A model generated the notes under the pieces. It was not told the DNA's origin, ran no database searches, and saw nothing but the letters and a program-made list of their open reading frames with translations. Both the position numbers and the translations under genes were made by a program. From Betaproteobacteria bacterium (GTDB lineage Bacteria; Pseudomonadota; Gammaproteobacteria; Burkholderiales; CAIKXV01), in contig CANGYF010000001.1 of the NCBI GenBank assembly GCA_947458265.1, positions 1 to 64,000 on the forward strand: 64,000 nt of DNA, in the 5' to 3' direction. This document shows, in pieces, positions 59,120 through 64,000 of this stretch; within the stretch, counting starts at the first letter, position 1; each line of letters starts with the position of its first letter.

Positions 59120-60742
59120 ATGGACACGCCCCAGTTCCGTCAGTCCCCGCAGCCAGCGGCGCCCGAGGCCGCGCCGGCATCGGCGTCTTCCGCGGTTCCG
59201 GTGACCATGCATTCCGCAGGCGTGCCGGCGGCGCAGGTCGATGGAGCCGGGTGCCATGGCGGCAAGCAGCAGATGGAAGCGGCAGCGCGCGCTGCCGGCA
59301 AGAGCGAAGCGCTCGACCAGTACGCGAAAGATTATCCGAAGGGTCCGCACGACCAACCGCAGTCGATGTGCCCGGCGTTCGGCAGCCTGCGCGTCGGGCT
59401 GCGCATGCGGCGCACGGCGACCGTGCTGTCGGGTTCGGCCTGCTGCGTGTACGGCCTGACCTTCACCTCGCATTTCTACGGCGCCCGGCGCACCGTCGGC
59501 TATGTGCCGTTCAATTCCGAAACGCTCGTTACCGGCAAGCTGTTCGAGGATATCCGCGAAGCGGTGTTCAAGCTGGCAGACCCGGCGCTCTACGACGCAG
59601 TCGTGATCATCAACCTGTGCGTGCCCACCGCCAGCGGCGTGCCGTTGCAACTGCTGCCGAAGGAGATCGAGGGCGTGCGCATCATCGGCATCGACGTGCC
59701 GGGGTTCGGCGTGCCCACGCATGCCGAAGCCAAGGACGTGCTGGCCGGTGCGATGCTGAAGTTCGCCCGTGCGGAAGCCGAGTCCGGGCCGGTACAGGCC
59801 CCGCGCAATCACCAGCCCGGCGCGCGCAGCGGCAAGCCGACGGTCACCCTGCTCGGCGAGCTGTTCCCGGCCGATCCGATGGTCATCGGGATGCTGCTAG
59901 AGCCGATGGGCGTGGCCGCAGGGCCGGTGGTACCCACCCGCGAGTGGCGCGAGCTCTATGCCGCGCTCGATGGCTCGGTGATCGCCGCCATCCACCCGTT
60001 CTATACCGCTAGCATCCGCGAGTTCGAAGCTGCCGGTCGACCGATTGTCGGCTCCGCCCCGGTCGGCCATGACGGCACCGAGGCCTGGCTGGAGGCGATC
60101 GGCCAGTCGTTGAATGTCGCGCGCGACAAGATCGATGCGGCGAAGAACCGCATCCTGCCGGCGATCCGCGGCGCGCTGTCGAAGATGCCGATCAAGGGCC
60201 GCATCACGATGAGCGGCTACGAAGGCTCCGAGCTGCTGGTCGGCCGACTGCTGGTCGAGAGCGGCGCGGACCTGCGCTATGTCGGCACCGCCTGTCCGCG
60301 CACGCCCTGGAGCGACCCCGACCGCGAGTGGCTGGAGGCCAGGGGGGTGCATGTGCAGTACCGCGCCTCGCTGGAGCAGGACCTTGCAGCGATGCGCGAG
60401 TTCAAGCCTGACCTGGCGATCGGTACTACCCCGGTGGTGCAGGCGGCCAAGGAAGCCACGATCCCGGCACTGTATTTCACCAACCTGATTTCAGCGCGAC
60501 CCCTGATGGGGCCGGCCGGGGCAGGATCGCTCGCCACGGTGATCAATGCGGCGATGGGCAACAAGGGTCGCTTCGACGAGATGAAGTCGTTCTTCGATGG
60601 CGTCGGCGAAGGCCATGCTGCCGGCATCTGGCAGGTCCAGGATGGCGTGCCGCAGGATCGTCCGGAGTTCCGCGAACAGCAGAAGCGCAACCTGGCCAAG
60701 CTGGCCAAGCAGCGCAAGGCCGAGGAGGCGGGGCTGATATGA
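59120..60742 (+). CDS. bchY: Chlorophyllide a reductase subunit Y (BchY)
   Basis: BchY is the 540-residue NifD-like subunit of chlorophyllide a reductase. After an Ala/Pro-rich N-terminal region of about 35 residues, cluster-binding cysteines appear in [11 protein letters not shown] and [31 protein letters not shown] is also visible. The frame runs straight into bchZ with an ATGA overlap. Confidence 0.96.
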
Positions 60743-62229
60743 GCCTGATCCTCGACCATGACCGGGCAGGCGGCTACTGGGGCGCGGTGTACGTGTTCGC
60801 CGCGATCAAGGGCCTGCAGGTGGTGATCGATGGTCCGGTCGGCTGCGAGAACCTTCCGGTCACCTCGGTGCTGCACTACACCGACGCACTGCCACCGCAT
60901 GAGCTGCCGGTCGTGGTCACCGGTCTCGCCGAAGAGGAACTCGGCCAGCACGGGACCGAAGGCGCGATGAAGCGCGCCCATGCGGTACTCGACCCGAACC
61001 TGCCCGCGGTGGTCGTCACCGGCTCGATCGCCGAGATGATCGGTGGCGGCGTGACGCCCGAAGGTACCGGCATCGCGCGCTTCCTGCCACGTACGATCGA
61101 TGAAGATCAGTGGCAGAGCGCGAACCGCGCCATGTACTGGCTGTGGACCGAATACGCGTCCAAGCGCGGCACCATGCCGGAGCGCCGTCCGGTGAAGGAA
61201 GGCGACAAGCCGCGCGTGAACATCCTCGGCCCCAGCTACGGCATGTTCAATTCGCCGAGCGACGTGGCCGAGATCCGGCGCCTGGTCGAAGGCATCGGCG
61301 CTGAAGTCAACATGGTGTTCCCGTTGGGAAGCCATCTCGCCGACGTGCGGCGCCTGGTGGATGCCGACGTCAACATCTGCATGTACCGCGAGTTCGGTCG
61401 CCTGCTGTGCGAGGCGCTCGACCGGCCGTATCTGCAGGCGCCGATCGGCCTGCACAGCACGACGAAATTCCTGCGTTCCCTGGGTGAACTGCTCGGGCTC
61501 GACCCGGAACCCTTCATCGAGCGCGAGAAGCACACGACGATCAAGCCGGTCTGGGACCTGTGGCGTTCGGTGACCCAGGACTTCTTCGGCACCGCAAGCT
61601 TCGCGGTCGTGGCCAACGAAACCTACTCGCGCGGCATCCGGCACTTCCTCGAGGAAGAACTCGGCTTCCCGTGCACCTTCGCGGTTGCCCGCAAGGCCGG
61701 GGCCAAGACGGACAACGAAGCGGTGCGCCAGATGGTGCGAGAGAAGACGCCGCTGGTGATGTTCGGCAGCTTCAACGAGCGCATGTACCTCGCCGAGATG
61801 GGCTCGAAGGCGTCCTATATCCCGGCTTCGTTCCCGGGCGCGATCATCCGCCGCCATACCGGCACGCCTTTCATGGGTTACGCCGGCGCCACCTATCTGG
61901 TGCAGGAAGTCTGCAACGCGCTGTTCGATGCGCTCTTCCACATGATCCCGCTGGGTACGGACCTCGACAAGGTCGATGCGACGCCGGCCCGGCTGCACGC
62001 GGAGCTGGCCTGGGACGAGGATGCCAAGGCGGCGTTCGACGAGCGCGTCGAGGCGTTCCCGGTGCTGGTGCGCATCTCTGCCGCCAAGCAGTTGCGCGAC
62101 GAGGTCGAGCGCAACACGCGCCACGCGGGGGAGTCGCGGGTGACGCTTGCGCGCGTGCAGGGCGACGCCGCGAGAGCCCGCCCGACGCCGGCAGCAGCTG
62201 CAGCAACGCCAGCGCAGGAGCCGGCATGA
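60739..62229 (+). CDS. bchZ: Chlorophyllide a reductase subunit Z (BchZ)
   Basis: BchZ is the 496-residue NifK-like partner of BchY. It starts [20 protein letters not shown] and has the cluster/active-site cysteine region [34 protein letters not shown] and a C-terminal light-independent reductase domain with [20 protein letters not shown] are also seen. The last 30 or so residues are Ala-rich. A 193-bp spacer with two hairpins separates it from pufB. No pufQ-like gene is found in that spacer. Confidence 0.96.
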
Positions 62230-62422: not shown

Positions 62423-62566
62423 ATGGCTGAACGAAGCTCCATCTCCGGCCTCACGGACAGCGAGGCACAGGAGTTCCACCAGTTCTACATTCAGGGAATG
62501 ATCGCTTTCACGGCAGTCGCCGTCGTTGCGCATGTCCTGGTGTGGGCCTGGCGTCCCTGGCTCTAG
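62423..62566 (+). CDS. pufB: LH1 beta polypeptide (PufB)
   Basis: This 47-residue antenna protein forms the outer helix ring of LH1 with PufA. The N-terminal part is [15 protein letters not shown] with the conserved His19. One membrane helix follows, with the bacteriochlorophyll ligand His37 in [14 protein letters not shown]. The WxWRPWL ending is the normal beta C-terminus. AGGAGG sits 9 bases before the ATG. The gene is followed 18 bp later by an unusual small gene rather than directly by pufA. Confidence 0.97.
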
Positions 62567-62584
62567 AGCCTGAAAGGAATAGTG

Positions 62585-62809
62585 ATGACCGACCTGACCG
62601 CAGGTTCCGTGCAGAGGATCATGACGGGCGATTCGAAGTCCTTCAGGGTGATCTATACGGTGAGCTTCGCGACCATTCTCGCGATCGCCCTCGTCGCGCA
62701 GAAGTTGGGCTGGCATTGGCGTTCCTGGCTTCCGGGGGCTGAAGGTGCCGAGTCGTTGAATGACGGCGTGAAGGTGGCGGTCTACAACTTCATGTCGCAA
62801 TTACTTTAG
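62585..62809 (+). CDS. Unrecognised single-span protein with PufB-like C-terminal motif
   Basis: This is a 74-residue protein encoded between pufB and pufA. It has a polar N-terminus (residues 1-19), one membrane span (about 20-39) and a 25-residue C-terminal tail ending NDGVKVAVYNFMSQLL that may form an amphipathic helix. Residues 38-49 (AQKLGWHWRSWL) align without gaps to PufB 36-47 ([12 protein letters not shown]), sharing A, L, W, WR and WL. The bacteriochlorophyll-ligating His of PufB is Gln39 here. PufB His19 aligns to Arg21, but Phe18/Phe20 match. AAGGA lies 6 bases before the ATG, and the stop overlaps the pufA ribosome site. It is unlike known PufQ. It has PufX-like size and topology but no visible sequence match. 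Being a beta-like paralogue that is part of RC-LH1 is inference. Confidence 0.85.
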   Translation: MTDLTAGSVQRIMTGDSKSFRVIYTVSFATILAIALVAQKLGWHWRSWLPGAEGAESLNDGVKVAVYNFMSQLL

Positions 62810-62821
62810 GAGAAAGAACTC

Positions 62822-63196: not shown

Positions 63197-64000
63197 ATGG
63201 CAATGCTGAGTTTCGAACGAAAGTACCGTGTCCGTGGCGGCACGCTCGTCGGGGGCGACCTCTTCGATTTCTGGATCGGGCCGTTCTACGTCGGCTTCTT
63301 CGGTGTGACGACGATGTTCTTCAGCATCCTCGGCACCGCGCTGATCCTCTGGGGCGCCTCGCAGGGCCCGACCTGGAACCTCTGGCAGATCAATATCGCG
63401 CCGCCTGACCTCAAGTACGGGCTGGGCCTCGCCCCGCTCCTTGAGGGCGGGCTGTGGCAGCTGATCACGGTCTGCGCGATCGGCGCCTTCGGTTCATGGG
63501 CGCTGCGCGAGGTCGAGATCTGCCGCAAGCTCGGCATGGGCTACCACGTACCCTTCGCGTTCTCCTTCGCGATCGGTGCCTATGTGACGCTGGTGGTGGT
63601 GCGCCCGGTGCTTCTGGGCGCATGGGGGCATGGATTCCCCTACGGCATCTTCAGCCACCTCGACTGGGTATCGAACGTCGGCTACCAGTACCTGCACTTC
63701 CACTACAACCCGGCGCACATGATCGCCGTCAGCTTCTTCTTCACCTGCACGTTCGCGCTGTCGCTGCACGGCGCGCTGGTGCTGTCGGCCACGAACCCGC
63801 CGAAGGGCGAGGCCGTCAAGACTCCCGAGCACGAGGACACGTTCTTCCGCGACACGATCGGCTACTCGATCGGAACGCTGGGCATCCACAGGCTCGGCCT
63901 GTTCCTCGCCCTGGCAGCGGTCTTCTGGAGCGCCGTGTGCATCGTGATCAGCGGCCCGTTCTGGACGCGCGGCTGGCCCGAGTGGTGGGGCTGGTGGCTC
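63197..64000 (+). CDS. pufL: Photosynthetic reaction centre L subunit (PufL), 3' end outside window
   Basis: PufL binds half of the special pair, accessory bacteriochlorophyll, bacteriopheophytin and QB. The frame gives 268 residues of an expected 275-280 before the window ends. It begins [20 protein letters not shown]. The histidines matching L153, L173, L190 and L230 of Rhodobacter are His154 (FSHLDW), His174 (NPAHM), His191 (SLHGAL) and His231 (GIHRLGL); His169 in FHYNP matches L168. Five membrane helices are visible. GGGAGGA precedes the ATG. pufM should follow. Confidence 0.97.

Follow-up and report, generated by a model that had tools for sequence, protein, structure and literature searches.

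PufQ of Rba. sphaeroides is a single-span protein that is retrieved together with ferrochelatase and directs porphyrin flux; its span and C terminus are conserved, the C terminus is predicted to be cytoplasmic, and the gene is encoded with LH1 so that the supplies of pigment and apoprotein match (PMC5725709). A pufQ mutant of this species is low in bacteriochlorophyll and accumulates porphyrins (PMC5725709). Another small gene has been described in Roseateles depolymerans 61A, where ORF74 (RD2015_RS05155) lies, by locus number, between pufB (RS05150) and pufA (RS05160) and is cotranscribed with both as the major 1-kb puf transcript (PMC10037100, citing Suyama et al. 2002). In a sigma-factor mutant of this bacterium, the transcripts remaining were 0.71% for pufA, 1.09% for pufB, and 2.34% for ORF74, placing the three at the top of the list of reduced genes, and the same genes were also those that changed most when carbon was limiting through starvation (PMC10037100). 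ORF74 is mentioned twice in the main text of that paper, with no function given at either place. A second small ORF of R. depolymerans, ORF77 (RD2015_RS05175), lies between pufM and pufC by locus number (PMC10037100); the genome studied here appears to have no room for one there.

Here, we describe a gene, called X below, in a 64,000-nucleotide stretch of the genome of a lake betaproteobacterium of the order Burkholderiales (positions 1 to 64,000 of contig CANGYF010000001.1, hereafter the window). We take ORF74 to be X, matched by place, order, and name, the name suggesting 74 residues. The original prediction, made from the window alone, did not recognize the family. This stands insofar as the X protein of the window has no Pfam match at E 10 and reaches 17.3 bits against NF040862 (NCBIfam pufB), far below the cutoff of 61, but a gene of this place is already in print as ORF74.

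Table 1. Features of the puf region of the window (positions in the window)
Feature	Position	Strand	Basis or remark
bchZ-like gene upstream of pufB	60739..62229	+	ORF; name presumed from operon order
pufB, LH1 beta, 47 aa, ligand His kept, tail-less	62423..62566	+	NCBIfam pufB_517_ASD, 83.8 bits (cutoff 61)
Shine-Dalgarno-like AAAGGA of X	62573..62578	+	Read from sequence; six bases 5' of X start
Gene X (ORF74-like; 74 aa, predicted single-span, His-less LH1-beta paralog)	62585..62809	+	ATG to TAG
Gln39 codon of X, at the place of the LH1-beta bacteriochlorophyll-ligand His	62699..62701	+	Alignment
C-terminal tail of X, residues 50-74	62732..62806	+	In the most constrained part of X; PufB here without tail
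X stop codon overlapping the pufA Shine-Dalgarno (TAGGAG)	62807..62812	+	Read from sequence
pufA, LH1 alpha, 62 aa	62822..63010	+	NCBIfam pufA_517_ASD, 63.3 bits (cutoff 35)
pufL, runs off window end	63197..64000	+	PF00124 match G000:C1:63284-64015

The reading frame between pufB and pufA, its own ribosome site, and its spacers of 18 bp (pufB to X) and 12 bp (X to pufA) were all borne out as predicted (Table 1). On rereading, the alignment of X residues 38 to 49 (AQKLGWHWRSWL) with the last 12 residues of PufB proved ungapped, with 7 of 12 positions identical and the ligand His replaced by Gln39. The 25-residue tail behind this Trp-rich segment is missing from the PufB of this genome, as claimed, but it is not unique to X, since long-tailed LH1-beta proteins have it. 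The overlap of the X stop codon with the pufA Shine-Dalgarno sequence is common to 10/10 loci of the window's genus. The frame upstream of pufB is one that we take to be bchZ-like from the operon order; a scan of the window locus with a profile of proteins encoded at the PufQ position detected no PufQ-like ORF in the interval from this frame to pufB, nor did the same scan of the whole genome. Downstream, pufC and not pufX lies directly 3' of pufM in this genome, with the likely start of pufC overlapping the stop of pufM. The PufC protein (CytoC_RC 5e-140; G000:C1 65023-66402, or L117:1224-2603, just past the window) carries a C-terminal OmpA domain (PF00691, 1.6e-13). By reading, loci L006, L007, and L119 have a similar extension, L093 seems to show the beginning of one, and there is none in L004, L009, L118, L120, L077, L080, L085, L090, L096, L097, and L101. 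On another contig of the genome (G000:C15, about 62461-62706; L050, L051), an LH2-like beta-alpha pair with two LHC matches over the cutoff is followed by a frame that is pucC-like by eye.

The window's family consists of one genus with 11 genomes, and the six named records that we found are metagenome-assembled or uncultured. Reaction-centre genes occur in 11/11 of these genomes and X in 10/11, always at the same place; the contig of the eleventh (G009) stops inside pufL. Of 399 genomes sampled from the order, 46 (16 genera) were matched by a profile of the ten X proteins of the genus (A1), and 47 had reaction-centre genes. The pufB-pufA region was read in all 46 matching genomes, and X was present in 38 of them, from 13 genera. 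It follows pufB in 38/38, with a gap of 17 to 44 bp in 37 and of 93 bp in G061, and precedes pufA by 11 to 22 bp in the 37/37 genomes where the contig continues, that of G061 stopping before pufA. X between pufB and pufA is the rule in phototrophic Burkholderiales (38/46 genomes read), which answers positively, for the genomes that have X and whose contig continues, whether such a gene always lies between the two and confirms, with an open frame in 38 genomes, its conservation in related phototrophs. Among the 47 genomes with reaction-centre genes, X is present in 37 and absent from 8, and two (G009 and G153) are unjudgeable because their contigs stop too early; the 38th X genome (G277) has no reaction-centre match on a contig that stops just after pufA. 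When 369 genomes sampled from the class and 398 from the phylum were searched with a wider profile (A2, 38 rows), 8 and 20 genomes matched, 2 and 4 of them inside Burkholderiales. In the other 6 class-level and 16 phylum-level matching genomes of these samples, no His-less protein was read between pufB and pufA. Their matches are His-bearing beta or PufQ-position proteins, except for a weak match in G923 and, in G675, a His-bearing beta-like protein not found in a pufB-pufA pair. Within the sampled class and phylum genomes, X looks confined to Burkholderiales. Neither plasmids, searched with one X protein as the query, nor viral contigs yielded a copy, and we attributed to chance a third match in the window's own genome (G000:C11, E 0.02), which falls within a longer frame resembling a membrane protein. 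A metagenome-assembled record titled Bordetella parapertussis (CAMDXD010000426.1, L005) carries the X-type puf operon of the window's genus, and its title looks mislabeled. Three of the genomes with X (G244, G215, and G083; L080, L082, and L085) differ from the other loci of the order that were read by an LH1 alpha that starts with MWRYWRIVDPRKAII and a beta with the variant AHSLVWxWRPWF.

Sequence and profile comparisons support X well as a His-less LH1-beta paralog whose nearest relatives are the long-tailed beta proteins of the same order. Searched against solved structures with phmmer, X retrieves long LH1-beta chains first (8z81_B, 6.1e-10; 7xxf_B, 7.8e-9). Profile-profile comparison by hhalign gave 99.75% (score 132, 73 columns) with long-tailed Burkholderiales beta, 99.1% (score 92) with long beta of alpha- and gammaproteobacteria, and 96.6% (score 47) with short beta. 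The controls were LH1 alpha (0.53%) and two annotated PufX (0.27%), and shared hydrophobicity can raise scores among short single-span proteins. In the HMM profile of X, long beta from G286 reaches 93 bits, the best PufQ-position protein 51, and LH1 alpha at most 3.6; scored apart, the span and the tail each score highest with long-tailed Burkholderiales beta. By BLASTP, X is not significantly similar to the PufB of its own genome (E 0.063), and the kinship appears against long-tailed beta and in profiles. Among the 38 X proteins, 8 match LHC (PF00556) at E<=10 (best 0.037), 30 match NF040862 (best 3.8e-5), and none matches PufQ (PF05398) in the 16 families listed. The predicted beta-like character with loss of the ligand His was upheld by phmmer and by the profiles, as His is found at the ligand place in 0/38 X proteins. 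The EFH motif that precedes the span in LH1 beta is missing from the X rows of alignments A2 and A3, and the N terminus is highly divergent. What X keeps is the segment W-R-x-W-(L/F)-P-G-A-E, followed in most members by a tail with G-V-K-x-A-V-Y-x-x-M-S. The LH1-beta tree called for by the original prediction placed X in one clade (38/38 rows, support 100/97; 115 rows), nearest to long-tailed His-bearing LH1 beta of Burkholderiales. In the same tree, which has 75 columns and several long branches and, being unrooted, gives no direction of descent among the three groups, the PufQ-position clade (20 rows) has support 99/93 and beta is held together weakly (88/65). The structure model that had also been proposed gave little: AlphaFold2 gave a long helix and a tail helix both for X (pLDDT 62) and for a long-tailed beta (pLDDT 68), in models too poor to use.

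The distribution of the tail gives a complementary view of this kinship. In 38/38 X genomes PufB is tail-less, ending one to three residues past (R/K)-P-W. Among the eight X-less genomes, five (G038, G257, G286, G172, and G186) have one long-tailed, His-bearing beta, with a tail of 27 to 28 residues, and three (G077, G194, and G224) have a tail-less beta, so that in these three the tail appears dispensable. The mutual exclusion of X and a beta tail gives a Fisher p of 4.1e-5 when related genomes are treated as independent. A PufL tree built from 44 of the genomes with 7 outgroup rows yields 1 supported independent X/tail pair (3 in all), a number that cannot reach significance, and this is no clean species tree because the outgroup rows fall among Burkholderiales. 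Selection within the genus (ten genomes) was assessed from median dN/dS, which for X was 0.35 overall, 0.42 both in residues 1-20 and in residues 21-45, and 0.16 in residues 46-74, compared with 0.14 for PufB and 0.08 for PufA residues 1-42 in the same genomes. The tail is the part of X under the strongest constraint, about as constrained as PufB, and by homology to beta it should lie on the periplasmic side. Its amphipathicity was not beyond that of shuffled sequences (796 and 565 of 5000).

Small proteins encoded upstream of pufB, at the PufQ position, are also related to X at the profile level. Sixteen such proteins from alpha-, gamma-, and betaproteobacteria outside Rhodobacterales were collected (L125, L129, L130, L135, L137-L139, L145, L152, L154, L155, L186, L187, and L090-L092). 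By hhalign, X matches them at 98.3% with a score of 72 (98.1% in a second comparison), and they in turn match long Burkholderiales beta at 98.7% and Rhodobacterales PufQ at 95%. The match of X to four annotated Rhodobacterales PufQ is weak (54% over 24 columns, score 27), and these PufQ proteins have no direct similarity to beta (2.1% and 1.6% for long beta, 3.1% for short). The Pfam PufQ model (PF05398) recognized neither of two PufQ-position proteins submitted to it and reached its cutoff in 0/59 genomes, a set that held no known PufQ bearer as a positive control; one weak match (0.098), in G775, was at the expected place. None of the 38 X loci, four of which (G189, G367, G001, and G007) hold only 16 to 352 upstream bases, yielded a PufQ-like ORF upstream of pufB, and one was found in 3/8 X-less loci, those of the tail-less G077, G194, and G224. 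In the genome-wide scan with the PufQ-position profile, in which part of the first-look candidates were scored for the larger genomes and several genomes were incomplete, the best match in every X genome was X itself. In none of the 46 genomes did we find X together with a PufQ-like gene, and in five we found neither. X has no special likeness to PufQ on this profile, where the best X reaches 40 bits and long beta from G257 reaches 46.

We propose that X is a pigment-free, beta-like partner of the RC-LH1 complex that was derived from a long-tailed beta and in which the tail is the working part, a reading to which we give a probability of about 0.5. Such a protein would have arisen by tandem duplication of a long-tailed pufB, after which the copies would have shared out the functions, with the pigment site but not the tail surviving in PufB and the tail but not the pigment site surviving in X. 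This origin is weakened by the unrooted three-group tree, which cannot tell X-from-beta from the reverse, and by the weak support for beta in it. X would be made together with LH1 from the pufB-X-pufA messenger and would sit in the membrane like beta, with the N terminus cytoplasmic and the tail periplasmic. It would then join the RC-LH1 core as a colorless beta-like helix, and the tail may contact neighboring LH1, RC, or PufC surfaces on the periplasmic side and so stabilize or space the ring. A colorless helix in the ring wall might also ease the exit of quinone, which is a guess. As to the amount of X, the mean anti-Shine-Dalgarno duplex energies over 37 genomes were -10.2 kcal/mol for pufB, -8.5 for X, and -7.9 for pufA, with the X site weaker than that of pufB in 23/37 and than that of pufA in 18/37. 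A weak Shine-Dalgarno sequence as a sign of few X copies was looked for and not seen; the energies give no hint of much less X than PufA.

The best rival is that X does the job of PufQ, as a small membrane protein that steers porphyrin to bacteriochlorophyll or helps to load pigment and is absent from the finished complex. It earns this place because X and PufQ were not found together and share a distant profile, and we still consider it rather unlikely. The original prediction that the gene might replace a missing pufQ agrees with these two observations, with the PufQ-like ORFs of the three tail-less X-less genomes, and with the encoding of PufQ alongside LH1 to match pigment and apoprotein supply (PMC5725709), but X is closer to long-tailed beta in every comparison, above all in the tail (mean identity of 0.46 to long Burkholderiales beta versus 0.15 to PufQ-position proteins). 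The higher score of a long beta on the PufQ-position profile, the weak match to Rhodobacterales PufQ, and the lack of a Pfam PufQ hit at cutoff in the 59 genomes all point the same way, as does the place of X, after pufB rather than between bchZ and pufB like pufQ. A beta-like topology of X would conflict with PufQ, since the PufQ C terminus is predicted on the cytoplasmic side (PMC5725709). No PufQ is annotated in, for example, a Novosphingobium record, so the job need not be filled at all.

Less compatible with the data are three other readings. X could break the ring, a role also raised by the original prediction, with one copy per core replacing a beta, binding no bacteriochlorophyll, and leaving a gap for quinone in the manner of PufX or protein W. 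A ligand-less beta-like helix is what an interrupted ring would need, LH1 is known to be opened by gaps at PufX and at protein W (PMC10214105), and pufC takes the place after pufM in the window's genome, a tetrahaem cytochrome being present in 20/21 loci scanned. Yet X shows no sequence kinship to PufX, its position among the LH1 genes with a Shine-Dalgarno sequence like that of pufA suggests many copies and not one per reaction centre, and closed rings are assumed to pass quinone through small gaps between LH1 polypeptides with no opener (PMC10214105); we regard this role as improbable. Pigment binding through Gln, which the original prediction had left open, would make X a pigmented beta variant. 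Gln is indeed the commonest residue at the ligand place (29/38) and is invariant in the window's genus (10/10), but the other proteins have Thr (5), Ser (2), Leu (1), or Gly (1), and the Trp four residues further on is kept in only 13/38. This spread makes Gln unlikely as a bacteriochlorophyll ligand, and with the missing EFH motif and a span less constrained than the tail, a pigmented X seems very improbable. Judged from the alignments, the Gln-ligand idea probably fails for the X family as a whole, with the window's genus as the possible exception. Finally, the highly divergent N terminus is what a decaying duplicate without function might show. This is scarcely credible for a frame that is open in 38 genomes of 13 genera at one place, with dN/dS of 0.35 overall and 0.16 in the tail, and that in R. 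depolymerans, if ORF74 is X, changes strongly with pufB and pufA (PMC10037100).

A wider, tentative, and on balance unlikely reading is that LH1 beta, X, and PufQ form one family in which beta twice gave rise, within the puf operon, to a pigment-free paralog: to PufQ, encoded upstream of pufB, and to X, encoded between pufB and pufA. These would be interchangeable with each other and with the beta tail, as colorless partners that couple antenna assembly to pigment supply. The lack of direct similarity between Rhodobacterales PufQ and beta and the failures of the Pfam PufQ model weaken it. If it were true, PufQ would be a former antenna protein with a periplasmic C terminus rather than the cytoplasmic one predicted, and the profile shared by PufQ-position proteins and LH1 beta would indicate where PufQ came from and a topology that can be tested.

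It is important to consider that 37 of the 45 judgeable phototrophic Burkholderiales genomes carry a conserved puf-operon protein that lies outside the curated families searched. Apart from ORF74, we found no mention of such a gene in the open-access literature and no function assigned to it, and we did not see there its recognition as a His-less beta paralog across 13 genera or the profile link among beta, X, and PufQ. If the proposed partner role is right, X would work like an LH1 subunit and yet fail the defining feature of LH1 beta. It would be a naturally occurring example of an antenna protein that has lost its pigment but been retained, and such a protein bears on the sizing, opening, or assembly of LH1 rings where no PufQ was found. 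The role of X can be tested in R. depolymerans, a bacterium in which sigma-factor knockouts have been used to study the photosynthesis genes.

Among known systems, the closest to X in sequence are the long-tailed LH1-beta proteins (8z81_B, 7xxf_B of Rhodopila globiformis, 9m8m_B, 6z5s_2, and those of G286, G038, G257, G186, and G172), which share its span and the W-R-x-W-L-P-G segment, and in the Burkholderiales also the tail S-(L/M)-x-x-G-V-K-x-A-V. Unlike X, they have the ligand His and the EFH motif, and those of the five genomes also a Tyr behind PGxxG; X stands beside a second, tail-less beta, which they do not. PufQ and the PufQ-position proteins are, like X, small, single-span, and encoded in the puf operon, and those from outside Rhodobacterales are similar in profile to X and to long beta, but they occupy another place in the operon, have a different tail (often ...PFAFM), and mostly lack W-R-x-W-L. 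PufX, protein W, and LH1 gamma are small polypeptides with an effect on the LH1 ring or on quinone traffic through it (PMC9640540, PMC10214105). A relationship of X to PufX was rejected on the 0.27% of hhalign, and PufX is encoded after pufM, whereas X lies between pufB and pufA. The gamma-like polypeptide of Rhodopila has 22 residues, is inverted between betas, and is encoded away from pufLMC (PMC9640540); X, with 74 residues encoded inside puf and an orientation deduced from its homology to beta, is set apart from it by description. The counterpart that matches X in place is ORF74 of R. depolymerans, cotranscribed with the same two antenna genes that flank X in the window (PMC10037100).
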